A stretch of DNA of 64,000 nt, taken from assembly GCF_949628215.1 (NCBI RefSeq), contig NC_134282.1, forward strand, positions 18,146,723 through 18,210,722. The letters run 5' to 3'. This stretch comes from Phalacrocorax aristotelis. Lineage: Eukaryota > Chordata > Aves > Suliformes > Phalacrocoracidae. The notes below the pieces were generated by a model. It saw only the letters and a program-made list of their open reading frames with translations. It made no database searches and was not told the origin of the DNA. Both the position numbers and the translations under genes were made by a program. Below are positions 14,431 to 54,826 of this stretch, one piece after another (position 1 is the first letter of the stretch; each line of letters opens with the position of its first letter).

Positions 14431-17632
<3,202 letters not shown>

Positions 17633-17699: not shown

Positions 17700-19314
17700 C
17701 TGTTTTGAGGGACTTTGTTCATTTTCAGTAGCATATCAGAATTCACAGCACAGGGGTGGAGTGGCGACTCTCGCTAGACCATGAAATGGAGACTTGACCC
17801 ATCCTTGGCAGGGCACTTGTAGAGCAGGCTGCGTTCCAAAGACACATAACTGGCAGCCTTCACTGCGACTCATCTGTGCCCCCTGTCATGGAATCTGAAT
17901 GGTTTGCAGAGCTAAACAATAAATGTTTACAACCTCCGAAACTGCGCGCACAAGCTCTATATAGAACACGAGAAATAATTCTTTGCCTGCCTGCTAGAGG
18001 GAAACTTCTTACTCCTGTTTCTCTTGCACTTGGTGATGACTGCTGCTGAGACAAAACTCTGTAATGGGACACTAAGTCCTAGCTCACATCTGAAAATAGG
18101 GTTATAGTAGAATCACAGAATGGGACCATACGTACTGGGCAGCACGTGTGCCCATAGTGTCTTCTCTGAGATATTTATTTAGACATGTTTTCGTCACACA
18201 ACTCTAGTGCCCGGGTGTCAGTTCTTGGTGGCTTCCTGGCCAGCCTCGTTGCAGTACCTAATGTGGGGTGGGGAGGGTCCATACCTCAGACCAGTGTATC
18301 ACTGTCGTGAGTTCCTTAAGGTTTGTTGAAGAAGGCATTGAAAAATGAATTCAAAGATTCTTAAAGTGCATGTGTCGGTTTCTTAGTACATGCCTGAAGA
18401 ATATGGGGTAGTTTTAAGAGTGGTTTCGGGCAGCTGCAGGTTGTCATGGGTACTGCTGATGTCACAGTCCCAAAATGGCCTGCCCCCATGCCCTGGGTGG
18501 GTGATGCCACTGATTCTACGTAGCTGTTTCAGGCTTTCAGTTATCGGACAAATTAAGACTGACTTTGAAATTGTAATTCAAGCAAAACCTGGGCCTGGCT
18601 ACACAGTTCTGGTATAGAAATTATTTCACTGGACTTACTTGAAGAACTAAACCTGTAGCTACTACTGTCTCCAGCAGCAGGAGAGCACTTGAGTGGAAAC
18701 CTGCATGTTTTAATGCATGGAGAGAAGCTGCAGCTTATGGGATGCTGGGTCAGGTCAGGCAGGGGTTTAGTCTTCTGGAAATACTGACAGGTGGTACAAG
18801 TAGGATTCAGAGAAGGATGGGGTGGAATACAAATTGAATCTCCAGTTTTAGGCACTACCAGAGGAAGGAGGAGGAAACATGGGCAAATTGGACTGTGACA
18901 GCAGGTTGGCGGGACTATGGTCCCTAGCGTGTGGTTGGATTCTGCTGATGTGGAGGTAGTAAGCGCACCCAAATTTGAGGTGCAATGCCCAAAAATACAT
19001 AATGATCCCATTTTTCTCTCCCCTTCTATCTTTTTCTGCTGTACCAGATACTGAGATACAAAGCCTGTTCCTGGGAGGCCTGACATCAAATATCATATGG
19101 CTGCAATTTTTGAATCTTTGTGTCAAAACTCTATTTCCTTTCATGTTCGTTCAGTCCCACCAAAACCAGTGTGTTCACTTGTATGTGATGGCCGCAGAAA
19201 GCAGCAGGCATAGCTGGTTCCAAGGCCTGTGCGATGCAAGTGCCTTTGCTGCAGCAAACCCCTTCTGCTCCTTTCCCCAGCAGCGCAGTAAAATGCCTTG
19301 TGTGGGAGGGTGCC
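17700..19314. other. intergenic, no gene recognised
   Basis: Neither strand shows a conserved exon. A short stretch from about 18106 begins AGAATCACAGAATGG, which resembles the end of an antisense CR1 element, but the similarity fades after about 15 bases. Confidence 0.5.
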
Positions 19315-19866
19315 ATGGCCACCGGGGAGCCTGCTGTCTGCTCCTTCGTGGACCAAACCACCTGGGAGCTCCTCAGCCTGCTTGACATAATGGGGAGGTA
19401 GAAGGGAAAGATGCTGGTGAGGGGGTTGGATGATGACAATGTGAGAGCTCCCTCGGTGCTGGTGGATTTTACCCAGGACCTGCGTGGCACAGCTGACATC
19501 AGGGATAGACTGCAGCAGGTGGAGAGAGAGGAAGAGGAGGAGGTTTGGCCATATCTGGTTTTTATGCTGTGGCAAGCTGCTGTATTGAAGTAGCTAATGC
19601 GCTGGGATCACGTGGATGAGGCTCTCTGGGATGTGAGGAGCCCCCTTCCCTGCCTGCCGGACGTGCTGGTGCTTGTGCTGATCCATGCAGAGCCCCGGGA
19701 GCAGCCGGACCAGGCAGTGGGAGCCCTTCAGAGAATGCAGTGTCTGATGGATGAGGCCTGGCAACCGGTGGTGGAGGCAGCTGCCTACAGGCCAGGCCAG
19801 CCTGGTGGCAACCTGGAGGCAGAGCAAGCTGTGTGCGGAGTGCTGAGAGGTCTGAAACTGCCATGA
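19315..19866 (+). pseudogene. C2orf72-like paralogue, degenerate or near-intact
   Basis: One frame runs from an ATG in good context (GCCATGG, 19315) to TGA at 19864: 183 codons broken only by TAG at 19399 and TAG at 19591, with no frameshift. It aligns along its length with exon 1 of the intact C2orf72 at 28525. WELLSLLDIMGR precedes the first stop and KGKMLVRG follows it, against RELVERVGGRRAVLLVAE. VLVDFTQDLRG matches MAAFARDLLGE, YLVFMLWQAA matches LLLVLCRAG, and ALWDVR matches VVRDVR. DVLVLVLIHAE matches AVVGVLLPGG, and VVEAAAYRPGQPGG matches VQAARYSPGSPAA. Identity is low but collinear. It lies on the same strand, 8.7 kb upstream of C2orf72. No later exons were recognised. It is probably an old tandem duplicate that lost function late; a live gene with sequence errors is possible. 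The function of the family is unknown. Confidence 0.75.
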
Positions 19867-21640
19867 AGGTATCCTGGGCCATAGCTAAACACTGGGGCAA
19901 GGGACAAACAGACAGGCTTTTTGGGAACAAAAACATGCTCAGGGTGGGGCATGGAATGGTCTGGGGGACAGTGTAGACCAAAGTGGTGCTGGGTGGCCAT
20001 GTTCAGATACGGGAGGGAAGACAAGCTGGACCCTGCAGGCAATGTGAGCTGGAAATGAGAATGGGGGCTTAAGTGCTAGGATGGACAACTGCATGTCCTC
20101 TTCTAAGTTGGTGGTGGCTCTTGCTCCTTGCCAAAAAACACGTGACCATGGAGATGCTGCTCAGTGTAACTGCAGTCCTGACCCCACCGCTGGGGCTTTC
20201 CGTGGCTATGCCGACAGCTCCACGGTCTCACTGACCCTGAATTCTTCATTGGAGGGGTGTGCCACCTTCTCTGGGTGAGCCATAGGCCAAAGCTTTGACC
20301 AGGATGATGCCTGCTGTTCTTCTCTCATGTGCATTTCCTCCCTTAGAAGTCAACTCCCAGGGTCCATTTATTGTTTCGCTCGCAGAGTTCAGTCACTGCT
20401 GTGCTCTGCCTGAACACATGCGACACAAGGTATTGAAGACAGCTGGAGAATGAATTCCCTTGGGCAGCAGAATCTGGCAGGCTGGATTTAGCGCTGTTCA
20501 GATGGATGTCCCTTTGTAGAAATACTTCCCTCCTGGCGCCTTGCTCACTGCCCGCCTTCTGCATGGACGATTCAGTATGTGGCTGCTGCCAGAAGGGGAC
20601 ACTGCTCCTTCACCATCACGCTGTCCTTGCTACGAAGCTCAGATTTCTTTGCTGCGTTGGCTGCATGATCTACCCCAGGAAACTGCTATCAAAAATCACT
20701 GAGTTTCTGCTTTGCATGAAGTACCTTGCTCGAATGTCAAAATGTGCCTGAGAAACTTGCTGGGCTGTCCCCAAGAAACCAGCTGTCAACAGAGAGGGAG
20801 TGAGAGCAGGCCAGCTGCCTCTGGATTTTAGACTGTCCCGAAACTGAGATAGTGAAAGAAACCCAGAGGTAAGAGCTAAGACCACTTTTTCCCAGGACAG
20901 CCTGAATGCAGGTGTCTTCAGTAGTTCTCATCAGCACAAAGCTCCTGAAATTCGCTGGGGTTCTTTGTAGTCACAGGATGGTGGGAGAGCAAAGTCTGCT
21001 GTCCCCTCTTGCTTATTGGACAAGATGCCACAAACAAGATGTAGGTCTGTCTCCGGTTACAGTGCTGTTTGCCATTAGTGCATTGGCCTTCCCTAAGACA
21101 TTGTCCTCACACCAGAATAGTTGAAGGGTCCAGGATGAGCTGTCTAAACTTGTTACTCTCGTCCATGGGATCCTTCCTACCTACCCTGATGGAAGGACCT
21201 GGGGATGGTTACGCACATGGCATGCTCTGCAACTCGCTATTTCACAGGCAGTTGCTCCAGGCATGCCTGGTAGCTCAGCGTGGTGTGTTCGGGCATGTGA
21301 TGCTATGCTGTCCTTCATGCTGTTTTCATGCTTGCTGCTTGAGCAGCCCTTGAATGTCCTGTCCCTTCAATATGATGGGTGAAAGAAGCTTGCTGTATCT
21401 TGACCCAAACTCCACTGAGATCTGTAGGTCAGGCCGAGTGCTGGCTTACAGAGGTGTCAGCACAGCTCTTGTGGGAGGACTGAGAGTGGTGTGGGCTGAA
21501 CCTGAGCGTGTATAGGGCTGAGAATCAGCTGCAACAAGGACAGTCCTGATCTGTGCCCATCCACTTTAAACTAGAGGCACTGCAAGTAAAACAGTATATT
21601 TGTGTTCACTCCTCCTCATTCCTGGCCAAAGGAGAAAAAA
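19867..21640. other. intergenic, no gene recognised
   Basis: I looked here for second and third exons of the C2orf72-like copy (the WSRRKN-type basic segment and the acidic C-terminus) and did not find them. Short open frames on both strands have no recognisable similarity. Confidence 0.5.
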
Positions 21641-24900: not shown

Positions 24901-27900
24901 TCTGCTACTTCTCTGGGGCACCCAAGAGGATCTCCATGGATGAAGAGCTCAGTGAGTGCTGGTGCCTCACAGCAATGCTCCTGGTGGCAGCTGGTAGTGC
25001 TGTACAAGTAAAGCAGATGCTCTCCAGCATCTTGTAATGGTGACGTGTTTTTCCAAAGCGGTAGGTGGAAGCAGGCTTGGGGAACAGGTCTGTGAAGGAG
25101 CACTTGTGCAAAAGTTTGCTAAGGCTTAGCTTGTCAGCAGCCAGTTCCTGCTCCTAGCTGGCTCAGAGGCTTTTCCAAGTGCCACTGTGAGCACCGAGGC
25201 TGCTGAAAGAGTTTAAGGAGCTGGGCTGGGTCATTGAACACAGGGGCTCAGAGCTGCTCTAACAGATTCCCTCTTGCTCGTTCAGGCTGTCTGCACTCCT
25301 ATCATCAACCTTGGCATAAGAATCCATTTCCCTCCATCCTCTTCCTACTTTCTTCAAAAGAGAGGTTTAATCTTTGTAAATGCCCCTCTTAAAGGGCCTA
25401 ATCCAATGGACCTTTGATTTTGTTTAGACTTCAATGCACTACTACTACACATGAGAAATTTATTTCTCTGAACAAAGCATCTTCTCTTCCTCCTTTGAAG
25501 TCCAAAATGAGCAGATGTTGTGTTTGCTCTGAACAGCCATGAACATGTGTAAGAGATGTGATTACCTTCATTTAGGGCTATCTGCAGAGATTTTCTTCAG
25601 ATGTGACTGTCAGGTGGACATGTGAAGGGGTGTCAGGCCTTGTAAATACATCTGTGGTTTTGCTCTGATGCCTGCCAGAGCTTTGAAGTCACTTTGTCGG
25701 GGACTACAAATACTGCTGAGCTCATGACTGACTCTGACCTGTTTGAGCTGTACCTCTTTAAGTAATGCAAAGGGAGACAAAGTTGTATTTGCTATTAGAT
25801 CTTACCTCTGTTAATAAGTAAAGAAACGTAAACAAGGTTGTTTGGTATCGTGGGTGACATTTGCCTTTCCAGCTAGCCTCTGCTGGCAATGGTACATGTG
25901 TAACTAAAATGAACAAAAGAATCGTAGTGGCCACGCAGAACAGCTCTATCTGGTCTCAATTATTAGATTTTAGAGGCTGCGCTGGCAGTTTAGATGCTGG
26001 GGCCACTGCAGAGAAATAGCCAGTGGTGCTCCTTATGAGCTGAGTTAGGAAGATAATTTCATTTTTTTCTATACCTTCCCTGCAGAAATCATCTTGGTAA
26101 GTTTGAAGAATCACCTGCTTGAATGCCCACTTTCTGAGGTACTTTGGGGGCTCTATGCGAGTCACTGGTGCAGCACTGCTTGAAAAGAGCCCTGTGAGAC
26201 CCATGCTGTAACGGTCTTCGCACATCAGACAGGGTATAGCTGGCACCACCACACCACAGGCTGTGCTGGCAGCTCGTGTGGAGTTTAACATGCTGTGGGT
26301 CTGTTGTGGCAGTTTGCAGGGGGCATCCTATCTCCTTACAGCTGCCTTCAAAAGACCTGAGCTTCCCCGATCAAACTGGCCAAAGCAAGTGCCCATCTTT
26401 GCCTTGTTCCCTGCAGGCACCAGCCAAAGCTGCTGGTCCTTCTTCACAGAGACCTTCTTGTGTCTGGCTTATGAACAGATCTGTGTGAGGGCTGTATCTA
26501 AAATTCTATAGTGGGGGAAATTATGAGGCACGAAACCCCAAGGTGAGGGCTCCTGGGGACGAGCACCCGCTCCTGTCCCCTCCTGCTGCTGCTGCCGCAA
26601 TTCATGGTGCTGACTATACCCAGGGTGTTTCTCCACGGGACTGTGAGCAGGTTTCTGACCAGATGAGAAAAAAAAATCCTTGTACATACAAAAACAGGGC
26701 AACATTAAGGCCAGACCTGGCTTTTGAATTATGCCTGACTTTGTAGCCCTGGTATGTTGACAGCTGCTCTCTGGGCTACCATGCTGGCATGGAAGCATGG
26801 GCTCTTGCAACAATAGACCCTGATCTTTGGAAGAGTAGCCTAATACTTCTGTTTTATTTTCCCCCAACTTGCTTATCAACACTTGTCAATTAATAAGTTA
26901 CTTTTGCTAGGACCCAGGGCAGAAAGTCTCTCTGAAACCCTCAGCCAGGCTCTGCAGTGCTGGCATAGGGCAGTGTTTGCTAAGCCTGTCATAGCTGGGG
27001 CAAACATTTTCCTGACTTAATCTTCCTAAGCTGCCACACCCTGCCATGCCTGGGAATGAACCCATGGCACATCCCTTCCTTGTGATGGCTGCTGACCTGC
27101 CAGGCTCTGGGGACGGGTGGCAGGGAGCAGGCACGCTGGCTCAGCTGCCTTTATGGCACATGAGCATGTCCCAACACACATGTTGGGAACCACTGATCCA
27201 GGGCAGGCACATGGATTTCTGCCATGCTTTCACTTCCAGTGCTCTTGGAGCCTCTACCAGTCCCACAGAGGTGGTTTGGCTCCAAATGACCTCAGAGAGT
27301 GACTGGCCAAGGTGACTCTTGCCATTTGCACCTTTGAGCTGTTTATCCCCTCTTGGGTTCTTGTGATAAGACATTACCTGTTTGGAGGAGCCTGTTCTGA
27401 TGTGGAACAGGGGAAGTGTTTACCACATGCCATGAATCGGAGCTCCCTGGTTCATCTGCCAGGCACACTGACACCAAGCAACTGCCAGGGCCAGGCACAG
27501 TGGCTGCCATCACGTGGCTTTTGTTCACTGTTGGCTGGCAGGGCTGGCTCATGGGACACGGGCCTTTCCCTGCGCCAGGGCTGCGTAACATGTGCCAGCA
27601 CTGCAGCTCTGATTATAGCCCTGTACTTACCCCTGCAAACATTCTGTGCTGTGATGGGAGCCGCATGTCACTGTGGAGCGCTGCCGATGCTGGTGGGGCT
27701 CTGACTACGGGCTGTGTTTTGTGTGGAAGGGGATGGATGTGGTGTTTGCAGAGGGGAAGCCAAAGGGGACTGGCTTGGGTAGGGTCTTGGAGGCACAGTG
27801 TGTGGGGTGGGGGCTGCAGCTCGGCTTTGTGCTTGTGCACAAATTGGGGAACTTGTGACCAGTGGGGTGGGTATGGCCTTTGAGGGGGTAATTGTTTCCC

Positions 27901-28249: not shown

Positions 28250-29130
28250 CTCTCTAGTCCGCTCCCTGCTGTGCCCACCCGGCAGGGGCTGGGCACCAGG
28301 AGGAGCTGGGGGGGTGCCGGCCCCGGGGGTGCTGCAGGCCGCCCTGCACGGGGGTTGGGGGTATCCTTGACGCCCTACCCGTTGCATCGGGGCGGGCGCA
28401 CGGGGCGGCGCTTGGGGCGGGGGGCCGGTGCGGGTGCTGATGCCCGGCTACGGGCCCGGTGGGCGGTGCGGTGCCGTCGGGGGCGGTGCGCGGTGCCGGG
28501 CTGGGTGCGCGGCGGCGGCCGGGGATGGCGGCGGCGGAGCTGCAGGAGCTGCGGGAGCTGGTGGAGCGGGTGGGCGGGCGGCGGGCCGTGCTGCTGGTGG
28601 CCGAGGTGGTGGCGGAGGGGGCCCCGGCGGCGGCCACGATGGCCGCCTTCGCCCGCGACCTGCTGGGCGAGGAGGCGCCGCCGGGCCCGGGGCCGGGCCC
28701 GGGGTCGGGGTGCCGGGCCCGGCGGCGGGCCGGCGGCGGGCGGCGGGCGCTGGGAGCGCGGCTGCTGCTGGTGCTGTGCCGTGCCGGGGCGGCGCGGAGC
28801 CGCGGGGCCCGGGCCCGCCTGCGGGAGGTGGTGCGGGACGTGCGCGGCCGCCTGCCCCCCGCACCGCCGCCCGCCGTCGTGGGCGTCCTCCTGCCCGGCG
28901 GGGACGGGGAGGACGCGGCGGTGCTGGACGCGGCGCTGCGGCAACACTTCCCGGCGCCCGGGACGGTGCAGGCGGCCCGGTACAGCCCCGGCAGCCCCGC
29001 CGCCCTGCGCCGCTGCCGCGCCGCCGCCTGCCGCGCCCTGCGGGCCGCCCTGCAGCAGCAGCACCCGGCAGGTACCGGGGGCGGCGGGGGCCGGGCCGCC
29101 ACCTCCCTCCCTCCATCCCTCGCCCCGGGC
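28250..29130. promoter_or_regulatory. CpG island over C2orf72 exon 1
   Basis: Extremely GC-rich and CpG-dense sequence covers the promoter and first coding exon of C2orf72. High GC creates long overlapping open frames on both strands; only the frame starting at 28525 matches a known protein. Confidence 0.8.
28525..29071 (+). CDS. C2orf72: C2orf72 coding exon 1
   Basis: 547 nt, residues 1-182, ending in phase 1 at donor GTACCG after QQQHPA. It holds the main conserved domain, an Ala/Arg-rich alpha/beta-looking region with hydrophobic strands such as RAVLLVAEVV and RLLLVLCRAG. Confidence 0.88.
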
Positions 29131-32100
29131 CCTGGGCTTTCACAGCGGGCGTTGCCCTGGGATCTTCTCCTCGGTGGGATCTACCCCGTCCCAACGGGTT
29201 CTGACCGTTCCTGATGGGATCTTCCCCCCTAATGGGATCTGGCTTTCCCCAATGCGAGCTCACCGTTCCTGATGGGATTCCCACCCCACCCCACCCCGGT
29301 GGGATCTGGCTTTTCCCATTGGGATCTGACCACTCCTTATGGGATCTCCCCCCCACCCCAGTGGGATCTGGCATCTCCAATGAGATCTCTTTCCTACTGG
29401 TGGGATCAAAGCCTTCCCAATGAGATCTGCCTTTCTACGCCTCTTTCTGGTAGGGTTTCCAGTCCTGGCAGCTGGGGAGGAGAAACTTCCCAGCAGGTTG
29501 GGAAGCACTAGAGCAGCTCTTGGATAGCAGGGATGTGGTAGCTGAGGGCTGTGAGGCGGTGGCCATCCAGGCTTATGGACGTGTGTCTTTGGGGATGCAG
29601 GATTGGGGTACAGCCCTTGCTGCAGAGCACAGGCAGCACCTGACCTTCCTGTGGGAGGAAGGTGCTTGAGGTGGCTTCGTATAATGAATAAGAACAACAG
29701 CAAGTGGGTGTTTGGGTTTAAAACCACATGTCTGTTGTTGGTGGCCAGTTTAAGCAACATGAGGATGGCAGGATGAAAGCTGGGTGTCAAACAGGCCTTG
29801 AGGAACAGCACTTGGCCTGGGGCAGAAGGCGAGTCATGTTTATATGCAAACGCAGGGCACTGGGTGGCTGGGCAGGGTCAGCCCTCACAGCAGCTACACA
29901 GAACAGCCCAGGCTCACTTCTGTCTTTGGCACCGCTTTTTGTGGGCTATTTCCCTTCTCCCTTCTTTCATTTTTTCCACCTTTTCCTTGCTCCCCATCAT
30001 TTGCAGGGGCTCTGGTGTTCTGTTCAGTCACTGCCTTTACTGCAAGGGATCCTGGCACTTGCCAGGAGCACCACATTGACAGGGTCCTCTGGGATCTCAG
30101 AGCTGACACACTCAGGTGCTTCTTTCCATCACCTCAGTCCAGAATCCTGGATCCAAACATTGAGGATCTTTGAGATGGCCGGGACCCACTGTGAGGGTGC
30201 AGGACTGTCTTCTGCCAACCGTTTGTACTGAGGCACGCATGATCCCCTTTCCAGGTTCTCCCCTTTCATGTGCTTGTCTTCCTTACATTGTTCCTGCTGC
30301 AAGAATTTCTGGTGTGCTTGCAGACACCACTGAGCCCTCCAGTTCTGGTTGCAGCAGCCTGCTGGGACAGCAGCTGCAGAGGCAGAAAAACATCTCTGCG
30401 TATGTGACCTTTTCCTGGTGCCTAGAGCTGCTGGCGTTCGGCTCAGTACGTGTATTTTTGTGGCTAGCTGTGGCTTTGTCCTTCGTGCAGGCGTGGAAGC
30501 AGCATAGCAGCCAGCAGAGGAGAAAGAGGAACAGAAGGAGCCAGAGCAGGTGTTGCAGCCTGTTTGCGTGTGCTTTATAAGCGCGGTGCGTGGGAGTACT
30601 CGGCATGTTGCTTTAATTTACCTCTGATGTGCTGCCTGGTGATCTTAGTCATGTGTCCCAGGACCTGCATGTGTAATGAGGATGCTCATCAGCTGCAGGG
30701 TTCAACCTTAGGCTGTGGCAGCTTCTTGCCATGCTCCTGTGAGCACTACCTTCTGAAATGTCCATGTGACCAGAGGGATCCCAGGTGTAGCTGTGCCTCT
30801 GGAGAGCTGGAGGCCCGGCGGTGCCAGGCACCAGCCCCGTTGCAGCTTGGTCTCCCTCACCTTGGGGCTTTCCCCACAAGCAAAGCAAAAGGGGAATAAT
30901 ATCTTTAATGTAATGTGAAGGAAGACTGTGGGGAAGATGGGTGTGGGGCTGCGGAGCACCCTGCAAAGCAGGTTCTAGGGATGTCAGTGTAAAGATGTCC
31001 TTGGCTGGGGCTGAGCTTGTCTTGTTTCCCCTCTTGACTTTGAAGGGGGCTTGTGCTAAGCTGACAAAAGATGCTCTTGTGCCTGGAGGTGTACAGAGTG
31101 TAAGGCTCTGTGTATGTGTGCTTGTGCCCTTTTTATTTGAGCCCAGCCTCAAAGCCTCTTCCTCTCCCATACACATGGCTGCCCAGCTCTGCCCGTGACA
31201 GTTGCTCTGGAGCCGCAGCCCCCCCGTGCTGGGAAGGTCCTGGACACTGTTACTTGTGTGGTGGAGCTGGGACAGGAATTGCAGTGGGGTTCCTGCATCT
31301 CTTGGGTCTAAGCAGAAATGTGCTCAGCTGCTCTCCTGTCATGGTGCCTCAGTGGTGTCCAGAGTCCCCACGCGCTGCAAGGAGGGGATGTATTTACAGC
31401 TGGAGGTTTTGGTTTGTTGACTGGCAGGAAACACTGCCACTGTGAACCCTTTAGTGTCGTAACAGCTTGATAAGTTGAAGGACACTGAAGTGGTTTATCA
31501 GTTATCCGATTACAAGGTGAAAGGCTGAATGATATTTCAATGGAGATGCTGAACTGCTGCTGTTGGAAACCCTATAAAATGTGCTGCTGTCGTGTTTTAT
31601 AAGCTGCTGTAGTGTTTTACTATAATGGCTTGAAAGCCTGCAGTAACTTGCTGTGACCTTTGATGTCCTCCAGAATATATACTATACATTGATGGAGGCC
31701 ACATGCTCTCTGCATTTTGCAAGCAGTTACAGCTGTAGTTTCCAGTGTGCTGAAAGTCAGCATGTGCAGCAGGTCTCCCTGGGAGGGAGGAATTGCTTAA
31801 TAAAGTGGGGAGCAGTAAATAGGGTGATATGGCAGAAGCTGTGTGACAATATAAAATAGAAACTTCCCTCTGCAGGAATGCCCTAACAGTGTCAGTCCCC
31901 AGCCTTGCCACATGTGCCAGCTGAGCTCCTGCCAGGTTTCTTGCTTGCTCTGGGCCGCCACATGCAGGATGGTTTTGGCAGTGAGGTGACAAGGTAGAAA
32001 CTGACACTCGGGACAAATTTCCAGAGAGGTTTCATCCTGAAATAAGGACTGCCAGGAGCTGCTCTGTGCTTTCCAGGGGTCGGCTCTCTGGAGTGGACCC

Positions 32101-33625
32101 GGTTGTGCTGTGAGGAGTTGGGCTCATGGAGGGGAGATGTCGTGAGTCGGTAGCAGAGAGGTAGGGTAGCAGCAGGCCTGACCTAATGCCTGTCTGAACT
32201 TATCTTCTCTGGTTTATCCAGAAGAGGGGAAAGACCAGGAGAGGTGGAGGCTCCCATCCTTTCTGCGGTGCATTTCTTTGAGCCGGAGGAGCTGGAGAAA
32301 AGGTCACGAAGCAAAAGCTGCAAACAATGTTCATGAAGGTATGCCCAGCTCTCTCCCCTGTACTCCTGCTGTGATTCTGAGAGGTTCCTCCCTGACTCCC
32401 CGGTGGTCCTCATGGCCAAACCACTTGCTGGTGTCCTCCTTAAGCTATTTCCAGCTCCACAGCTGATATCTCTTCCCTGGCTGTGGTTTGGCCAGAACCT
32501 GAAGACAACTAGTGCACATCTGGCTGCTGTGTTGCTGCCTCTCTGTTTTCTGACCTTTTGCTTGTCTAAATAAAACCACGCCTGGTCCAGTGCCCAGCTA
32601 CACCCCCGAGAGCACTGCTGAACTCAGCTGCGTTTTGCCAAAGTTTCTGGCAGCAGAACTGCTGTGTGTCTAAACAATAAATTGGAATCATCACCCTGAT
32701 CTTACATGATGTTTTCTGCAAACACAGCTCAAAGGAGTGTTCCCAAACCACTTGCATTTGGGGCTGACGGGGAGGAGGAAGAGGGTAGTCAGCCTTGATC
32801 TCCCGGATTCTAAAGGAAATTGTTCAGGTGGTGAATAGCCTAGCATTCAGCCTTTGCTGTACTGTTGGTACCTCTGCTTGCCTTTCCCAGCGGTGATTGT
32901 CTTTTTGCAGAGAGCCCCCATGCAGGAGGCTACAAGGTGCGTGGTGTGCACATCCAGACTGCTCTACAGAGCACGTAGAGGAGGGGAAGCTCCTTCACTG
33001 TAAATAGAATAGAACAGAACAGAGTATTTTTAATTGGAAGGGACTTAAAATTATTGTCCAGTCCAACTGCCTGACCACTTCCCAGCTGACCAAAAGTTAA
33101 AACATGTTATTAAGGGCATTGTCCAAATGGCTCTTAAACACATAAAATGCTTAAAAAACATAAGGATTAGAGAAAAAAATGCCCGCTTTGTGCAGCTTTG
33201 AGACGTCCTCTAGAGTCAGAAAATTTTAAGTGCCTGATCTTGCTGTCAGTGCCAGGCAAGTGACACCTTGTGGCCATGCAGCTTGTTCTGAGATTACTGA
33301 GATCGCAGGAGGCCAGGGAGCTGGGCCCTGTGCTCCTTTGCTCATAGATCACCCCTGGTTCTTGAATTAATGCTGAATTTGTAAAACAAAATGAAAATCA
33401 GTTATGAAAAAAATCAGCTGTGCTTAGGTTGTGAGTATTCATCGATTGCTTTGTCTCATGCTTTCTTTTCATCTTAAGTTTCATTTTGCATGAAGAAGGG
33501 TTTCTTTTTCAGATCTCTCTCTGCTCTTTGCAGATGACCTGCAGGACCCCAAGGAAGAAGTGGCTCTCACCAGCCTCTCCCCGAATGGAAACTACGAAGA
33601 AGCTGCTGGAGGCCCGGGCACCTAG
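28525..33625 (+). CDS. C2orf72: C2orf72 orthologue, uncharacterised protein
   Basis: Three exons, 28525-29071, 32222-32338 and 33534-33625, give 756 nt and 251 aa. The match to human C2orf72, as I recall it, runs the whole length. RELVERVGGRRAVLLVAE matches QALVEAAGGRGQVLLVGE; LREVVRDVRGR matches LREMLRDVRGR; VQAARYSPGSPAA matches VQAAAYCPGLPAS. In exon 2, PSFLRCISLSRRSWRKG matches PGLLACFSWGPWSRRKN. In exon 3, DDLQDPKEEVALTSLSPNG matches EDFQEPEEELPLTAIFPNG. I chose ATG 28525 (GGGGATGG) over the in-frame ATG 22 codons upstream because its N-terminus fits human. No signal peptide or membrane segment is evident. The function is unknown. It lies 3.8 kb upstream of PSMD1 on the same strand, as in human. 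Confidence 0.9.
29155..29435. repeat. about 20-bp minisatellite in C2orf72 intron 1
   Basis: About 14 diverged tandem units are close to GGGATCTGGCTTTCCCCAAT, each starting GGGATCT (or GAGATCT, GGGTTCT) and usually ending in AAT, GAT or GGT. Unit length varies from about 17 to 27 bp through C-run expansion. The array starts about 85 bp after the exon 1 donor. Confidence 0.85.
29436..32221 (+). other. C2orf72 intron 1, remainder
   Basis: No coding exon was seen. Several open frames on both strands (for example 29728-30231 plus, 30649-31176 minus) have no recognisable similarity. Confidence 0.5.
32222..32338 (+). CDS. C2orf72: C2orf72 coding exon 2
   Basis: 117 nt, phase 1 in and phase 1 out. 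The acceptor is TTTATCCAG and the donor GTATGC. It encodes a basic segment with SRRSWRKGHEAKAANN. Confidence 0.85.
33005..33142 (-). mobile_element. CR1 LINE 3' fragment, antisense
   Basis: Reading on the plus strand: AGAATAGAACAGAACAGAG, then TTGGAAGGGACTT, then GTCCAGTCCAACTGCC and GGGCATTGTCCAAATGGCTC. This order is the inverted 3' UTR of avian CR1 elements (tail of short ATTCTATG-like repeats, then the GGTTGGAC and GACAATGCCC blocks). It is truncated, non-autonomous and moderately old, and sits in C2orf72 intron 2. Confidence 0.75.
33534..33625 (+). CDS. C2orf72: C2orf72 coding exon 3 and stop
   Basis: The acceptor is CTCTTTGCAG. It encodes the acidic C-terminus DDLQDPKEEVALTSLSPNG, then NYEEAAGGPGT and TAG. 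This is shorter than the human C-terminus. Confidence 0.87.
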
Positions 33626-35580: not shown

Positions 35581-37268
35581 TATTCATGGCCCCGGGCCTC
35601 AGCACTGAGTGGTGCGTGCATCTTAGTGAGATGAAGGTGTCCTCGGCTCTGTCCCTGGCAGGAGTGTGTAGGTCTGCTGTGTGCTGGAGTCCCTCTGCCT
35701 GTCTTCCCAGTCACTAGGCAGTTACATGCTTTCCCAAGAAAACCCTTGGTTAAATGAGTCCAGTAGGACTTGACAGTATGATGAGGTGAATCTATTTTCT
35801 TTGAGTATTTGGCCTTTGCCACCTAGAATTTACCAGTGAAGGGGTGACCCAAGAGTACAGATTTGCAGTTAAACCTATCTTAGTGCCAAAAATCCATTGG
35901 ATATATTTACTGGTAATTTTTAAGTAAATCATGCAAGTTTACCCTTGCAGTGAGACTTTTGTGGAAGATGAACTGCCTGGCATTTAGGAGGTATGAGTGG
36001 GAATACATTTGAGCAAAAGTATTGTTTGCCTTTGACTGAGGGATGTGACTTGAATTCTTTTTTTTCTTTTTTTTCACTAGCTGGGCATAAAGAGGTGCAG
36101 CAGATAGTTTTACATGTTTAATTGATTTAATAATTTAAGGGCACTGTTATCTTACGTGCTTGCTGTAAAAAGTAAAGACATTTAATTTCTGAATTGGAAC
36201 ATGCTTCAGTTTGGTTTTTGTTTGCCATGGTGTTATCCTTAAAGTAGCATTGCTCATGGTTTAAGTGGTATTTCCCTTGATTCAAATAAAAGGTATATTG
36301 GGAGGGAATGGAAGTGACCCCAGCATATGGTATGCAGAAGATCAGCAGCATGGTCTGTGTGCAGTTGCGGCCGGCTGCTCACCTGTGGGCAGTGGGGAAG
36401 GCTGGAGACTTCTCAGTTGTCCAAGGAGAGCTGGGCTGACCCTCTTGGCATTGTGGGCAGGGCTCTGGTAACTCTCCTTAATAACATTCACTAACTGAGG
36501 CCATTAGGTTTCCTCGAGGAATTCAGGCCCTTCAGAATATATTTTTTCCTATTTAGTAGAAACGGATAGAAATCAATGCCACTGAAGTCTGGGTGCTTTG
36601 ATCTCTTGTTGTACAGCTCCATTGCTGTTGAGCTGGGTTCTCCTTGGTACAATTTCCCATCCGGTCCATACTGGACCCAAAGCAGGGGCCAAAATTCTCC
36701 TCCAGAACCGGGGCACCTGTGCAGGGGATCTGGACACTGCCCTGTGCTGCGAAGCGGCAGATGGGGAAAAGGATTTGGTGAGGGGCTGTCAGATGCGGAG
36801 ATGCATGCTTCCAACGAAGAAATGGGTTTGGGCGAGGCCTTTCCCCATGGTACAAGGTACCTCAGGGGGCCCGGGGCCCACGGAGGCGGTGGTAAATCCC
36901 CGATCCCTGCAGGCCTGTGCCCACAAGATGCCACCAGCGTGGTGCAGCCTGGCAGAAGGGGGCAGCCGCTCGCCTGGGCAGGGCGCAAACACGGGCATTT
37001 AGGGGGTCACCCGGGGGGATCCCGCAGCCCCTTTCGCCGCCCCCAGGCAATGAGGCGCCCGTCGTGCGGTCTGTGGGGTGTGGGGGGGAGCTCGGGGGGG
37101 GCGGTCAGGGATGCGTAGGCCGTGAGGTGCCGCACCACCCGCGAGGCGCGCGGGAAAAGTGTGAGGTCCCGGCAGGCAGAGCTGTCGCCCTTCGCGCCTG
37201 GTTGTTTCTCCGCCGCCCCGCTCAGGCGATCGCCACGGGCACCTTTTCCCGGGAGCAGCGAGCTCTTG

Positions 37269-37297
37269 CCGGAAGGGGCCCTTGGCTGCACTTCCGG
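37269..37297. promoter_or_regulatory. paired ETS-type sites, PSMD1 promoter
   Basis: CCGGAAG (37269-37275) and ACTTCCGG (37290-37297) are opposed ETS cores about 130 bp upstream of the start codon, typical of TATA-less housekeeping promoters. Motif match only. Confidence 0.4.
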
Positions 37298-37423
37298 GCC
37301 GGGCGGCGGCGGCGCGAGCGGCGGTGGCACCGGCACCATCAGCACCAGCGCACCTGGGCCGGGCCGGAGCGGGCCGGACCCCACCGGACCCCACCTTCCC
37401 TCGCGGGCCGGGCGGGCGACACC

Positions 37424-54826
<17,403 letters not shown>

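Follow-up and report, generated by a model that had tools for sequence, protein, structure and literature searches.

The 64,000-nucleotide stretch of the Phalacrocorax aristotelis genome analyzed here (contig NC_134282.1; hereafter the window) contains IQCG on the minus strand followed on the plus strand by RPL35A, a reading frame resembling the first exon of C2orf72, C2orf72 itself, and PSMD1. IQCG was identified by a minus-strand match to DRC9 (best stretch approximately 8.5 to 8.6 kb, E 3e-8) in a search of the PDB that took two of the three frames each of 38 to 53 kb (plus) and 1 to 13.2 kb (minus); one of the frames searched in each region was without any match. The other RPL35A pieces flanking the one recovered by phmmer were assigned by putative motifs of this gene. 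The main features are as follows.

15656..17632, plus strand: RPL35A exons in three pieces, the upstream neighbor (middle piece by PDB phmmer)
19315..19866, plus strand: exon-1-like frame of a putative second C2orf72-family gene (translation, Pfam DUF4630, profile E 3e-6, period-3 power 10.2)
19399..19401, plus strand: first in-frame TAG of that frame (translation)
19555..19848, plus strand: best conserved part of the frame, including a VEAAAYRPG block (alignments, profile)
19591..19593, plus strand: second in-frame TAG (translation)
19869..19870, plus strand: donor-like GT (AAG|GTATCC), putatively matching the exon-1 donor of C2orf72 (CAG|GTACCG) in position, with phase 2 versus 1
28525..29071, plus strand: exon 1 of C2orf72, intact and CpG-rich (DUF4630, 28 bits, above the cut-off)
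32222..32338, plus strand: probable exon 2 of C2orf72 (splice sites, flanking introns both in phase 1, similarity to a provisional human protein sequence)
33534..33625, plus strand: exon 3 of C2orf72, with its stop at 33623-33625 (best C-terminal match of the provisional human C2orf72)
50178..51332, plus strand: PSMD1 exons, the right-hand neighbor (PDB phmmer)

Pfam searches of ten ORFs downstream of C2orf72 gave no match, and no tRNA (ARAGORN) or Rfam family at gathering scores was found in the window. A GC-rich block (37001-38000, GC 0.77) before the PSMD1 exons is probably the promoter of that gene. A single minus-strand match at 18109 to what we take to be a CR1-like 3'-end motif would suit a bird or reptile genome.

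The C2orf72 gene of the window reads intact, with three exons encoding 251 amino acids and two introns, both in phase 1, and its GC content at third codon positions is extreme (GC3 0.97). Exon 2 was picked on visual inspection of splice sites and phase. The human C2orf72 sequence used in the alignments and the profile is a provisional one, which we treat as a lead and not as data; the database entry of the human protein is A6NCS6 (PMC6053247). It scores 264 against exon 1 of the window (best of 3000 shuffles, 116), and its C-terminal part has its top plus-strand match at exon 3 (83 versus 44 at the next place), whereas the part corresponding to exon 2 scores 43 at the true place, under chance matches of up to 49. 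Pfam searches with stop-masked whole frames of 28.3 to 38.3 kb (three plus-strand frames) gave no match; since exon 1 of C2orf72 was itself missed, such long queries are insensitive. Intron 1 carries an imperfect 67-base tandem repeat (29233-29360). In the Red Junglefowl the gene is designated C9H2orf72, lies on chromosome 9, and appears in a cerebral-hemisphere expression table (PMC5421773).

The frame between RPL35A and C2orf72 begins with an ATG (19315-19317), runs for 183 codons, and ends at a TGA (19864-19866). Coordinates and translation agree with the description in an earlier note of a plus-strand frame with only two in-frame TAG codons; these two codons mean that the interval holds no intact reading frame. 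Upstream of the ATG the frame stays open back to a stop at 19186, and past the second TAG there are 90 open codons, the second of which is an ATG (19597). The probability of two or fewer stops under a Markov null is 0.014, and equally few stops occur in 2061 of the 22890 overlapping frames of similar GC content in the window, a set from which the frame was not removed. The scarcity of stops is by itself weak evidence. The CpG observed/expected ratio of the frame (0.21-0.27) equals the background, there is no CpG island, and neither AATAAA nor ATTAAA occurs from 17919 to 20600.

The strongest evidence that this interval was a coding exon is its codon imprint, which is independent of the provisional human sequence. 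Period-3 power is 10.2 in the frame and 11.4 in exon 1 of C2orf72. The value of the frame is reached by 6 of 2116 windows, with starts at 28381-28531, all of which overlap C2orf72 exon 1, and the maximum off both exons is 4.01 (2042 windows). GC content by codon position is 0.705, 0.388, and 0.683, and the resulting contrast (0.306) is close to that of C2orf72 (0.297; ratio 1.03, bootstrap 0.67-1.54) and is matched by none of 12690 sampled frames. The imprint is seen, in the same frame, between the two TAG codons, and it is also present past the second; in the short stretch before the first it is weaker, with a period-3 power of 2.1. Of the two adjoining 549-base segments, the upstream one has no imprint (0.7), and the downstream one has a mild periodicity (2.2) without the GC pattern.

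To look for the relatives of the frame, we compared its translation with Pfam and with the C2orf72 sequences. DUF4630 (PF15443), the family of C2orf72, is the top model among 24736 Pfam models (E 0.025, 15.2 bits, stops read as X), and the last 90 codons alone (19594-19863) match it at E 0.0066 (17.1 bits); both scores miss the curated cut-off of 25 bits. DUF4630 was found in none of eight controls (seven further ORFs plus a copy reversed by hand), and the segment of the frame between the stops (19402-19590) was also without a match to it. A two-sequence profile built from the window C2orf72 and the provisional human protein detects the frame at E 3e-6 (next unrelated sequence 0.41, among 1611 sequences). 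With the window C2orf72 alone, phmmer gives E 0.0033 (next unrelated 0.85, same 1611 sequences) and tblastn 0.008 (next 0.59). A reverse phmmer search over 1307 ORFs, in a set that omitted the frame pieces 19402-19590 and 19594-19863 and kept 19189-19398 (the top hit, overlapping the frame), gives 0.0084, rising to 0.012 once 500 shuffled C2orf72 decoys are included (next unrelated 0.08-0.11). The statistics drawn from the window sequence alone (E 0.003-0.012) are modest.

Shuffled sequences point the same way. The alignment score against the window C2orf72 is reached by 0 of 3000 shuffles under BLOSUM62 and BLOSUM45 and beaten once in 3000 under BLOSUM50 (best shuffle 81 versus 76 observed). 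The raw BLOSUM45 score means little, because GC-rich frames at 13.5-13.7 kb (113) outscore the frame (100). The earlier description of a sequence collinear with, yet strongly diverged from, an exon 8.7 kb away is borne out: the C2orf72 ATG lies 8659 bases past the TGA of the frame on the same strand, and the exon aligns lengthwise in one frame at 26% amino acid identity, with VEAAAYRPG in the frame facing VQAARYSPG in C2orf72. DNA identity is 47% (0.53, 0.47, and 0.40 by codon position, over 168 codons). Judged by these comparisons, the frame is homologous to exon 1 of C2orf72 beyond chance, in the sense of descent and not of curated family membership. Structure prediction was less informative. 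AlphaFold returned a usable alpha/beta model for C2orf72 exon 1 (pLDDT 70, pTM 0.71) and a poor, all-helical one for the frame (pLDDT 45, pTM 0.35), unlike that of C2orf72, and the best Foldseek match was at E 0.13. A small GTPase (Ras-like) fold, weighed for C2orf72 exon 1, is a tentative candidate. Searches of prokaryote and virus collections gave 141 and 197 pattern matches, respectively, none confirmed as a relative.

The claim that the frame contains no frameshift stands for its alignable parts and is qualified elsewhere. About a third of the frame, in its middle (approximately 19489-19617), is hardly alignable to C2orf72. A frameshift-tolerant alignment to the window C2orf72 prefers five shifts at a penalty of 8, three at 12, and two at 15, and the cheap shifts fall in or near this middle part; at a penalty of at least 20 a single frame is retained, covering only 19618-19848. 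Against the provisional human protein, eight shifts are preferred at a penalty of 8 and one frame (19555-19848) at 12 or more. The 3' end is the other doubtful place. With the GT at 19869 as the old donor, the exon would measure 554 bases versus 547 in C2orf72 and end in phase 2 instead of 1, and because of these differences there may be one frameshift near the 3' end of the frame, if that GT was indeed the donor.

No counterpart of exon 2 or exon 3 was recognized on the plus strand between 19.9 and 28.4 kb. The top match there (25728-25811, E 1) was rejected as chance. Because these exons are short in C2orf72, copies that had diverged to the extent of the frame could escape the search. At the DNA level, 18.3-28.3 kb showed nothing more similar to 28.3-36.0 kb than E 0.23.

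To estimate how long the frame has been free of constraint, we simulated neutral decay of random coding sequences with the codons of the frame (400 runs per point), assuming the indel rates, a frame-breaking share of 80% of indels, and the CpG weight. At 5% indels per substitution, the probability of two or fewer stops and no frameshift was 0.40, 0.09, 0.005, and 0.003 at 0.04, 0.1, 0.2, and 0.3 substitutions per site, respectively; at 10% indels it was 0.17, 0.007, 0, and 0. With one shift allowed, the values at 0.1 substitutions per site become 0.265 (5%) and 0.055 (10%). In this simulation the frame is fitted by at most about 0.1 neutral substitutions per site, which, set against 47% DNA identity, suggests that most of the divergence accumulated under coding constraint and that the loss was late. 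This part of the reading in the earlier note, long selection followed by recent loss, is supported by the codon imprint, the profile homology, and the decay simulation.

A three-way alignment bears on the age of the duplication. In its 161 gap-free columns the frame equals the window C2orf72 at 40 and the provisional human protein at 42, the latter two agree with each other at 77, and the exclusive matches of the frame number 10 with the window copy and 12 with human. A duplicate younger than the divergence of birds and mammals should be closer to its neighbor, and since the frame is not, the split would be older than that divergence. Given the long branch and a provisional human sequence, this suggests that the duplication is old.

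Taken together, these results make it probable that the frame is exon 1 of an old second gene of the C2orf72 (DUF4630) family, which stayed under constraint while most of its divergence built up and was lost late in this lineage. Here we infer the age of the duplication, the lateness of the loss, the old splice structure, and the fold. An old DNA-level duplication beside C2orf72 would have produced the second DUF4630 gene, which would have been translated and maintained as a coding exon during most of the divergence. Two nonsense codons would then mark a late loss of function in this lineage; exons 2 and 3 would have been lost or have drifted past recognition, possibly with a phase change at the donor. 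The living protein probably folded into the small alpha/beta domain predicted for C2orf72. The two copies share their strand, the one-frame alignment along exon 1, and, putatively, the position of a donor-like GT at the exon end; they differ in that the second has two stops, no recognizable exons 2 and 3, no CpG island, a much lower GC content, and a domain score under the Pfam cut-off.

Among other readings, it is unlikely that C2orf72 was duplicated in tandem more recently, in this lineage only, and that the copy changed very fast (relaxed or positive selection, a fall in GC once outside the CpG island) before it died, although this would account for the adjacency and shared strand, and an exit from the extreme GC regime of C2orf72 would speed change and is compatible with the background CpG ratio of the frame. 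Such a duplicate is at odds with the absence of surplus residues in common with the neighbor over the provisional human protein (10 versus 12) and with the lack of DNA likeness between the two intervals. It is still less probable that the gene is alive, either with TAG codons that are artifacts of assembly, polymorphisms, or removed by splicing, or with a shorter protein that starts at the ATG at 19597. The barely decayed codon imprint and the open codons that follow this ATG are what a living gene would have, whereas the two stops, the unrecognized exons 2 and 3, and the lack of polyadenylation-type hexamers (AATAAA/ATTAAA) from 17919 to 20600 and of a CpG island are not.

Two further explanations are very improbable, and we reject both. 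A retrocopy of C2orf72 mRNA would agree with a sequence that is exon-1-like only; exon 2 and 3 sequence should, however, come directly 3' of the frame, where none is recognized, and the exon end has a donor-like GT. The second, a stretch of GC-rich non-coding DNA that is open and similar by chance, draws on the nine percent of GC-matched frames with two or fewer stops, but the period-3 power and codon contrast are unmatched in the window outside the two exons, and the DUF4630 and profile matches also speak against it.

If the frame is the remnant of an old paralogue, a wider history can be tentatively proposed, to which we give somewhat less credence than to its rejection: a second C2orf72-family gene between RPL35A and C2orf72, duplicated before the bird-mammal split, would persist intact in some present-day reptiles or birds, with losses elsewhere, among them this lineage and perhaps the mammals. 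The view that this family has no named second member is not contradicted in the open-licence literature searched, where no title concerns a second avian member; it may need amending for one reptile gene annotated as a C2orf72 relative, corn-snake LOC132709993, named 'uncharacterized protein C2orf72-like' and differing in embryonic skin RNA-seq (PMC11948899). This gene may be the second gene, an ordinary C2orf72 orthologue, or neither. A story of the same kind is described for slc26a12, an overlooked old vertebrate tandem paralogue of slc26a2 that is disrupted by stop codons and deleted exons in some birds and turtles but intact in others (PMC11145369). That family is unrelated, and its history was shown with many genomes; it demonstrates that ancient tandem copies which some birds have lost and others retain do go unnoticed. 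STK33, a unitary pseudogene of neognath birds, is likewise a gene lost within birds, in another unrelated family (PMC4509753).

If confirmed, the frame would extend a vertebrate family of unknown function by a gene that had been overlooked, and this lineage would be a natural knockout for it; comparison of species that kept the gene with those that lost it would then give a first clue to the role of C2orf72 proteins. A further point is that the codon-position imprint of a single raw window can reveal a gene that died lately, ahead of comparative data. Opposite the frame, the antisense strand is also open over a long stretch (19131-19607, 158 amino acids), with weak Pfam matches under the cut-off (DUF7455, E 0.039; Calc_CGRP_IAPP, E 0.052); a long antisense frame of this kind is expected opposite a GC-rich coding frame.
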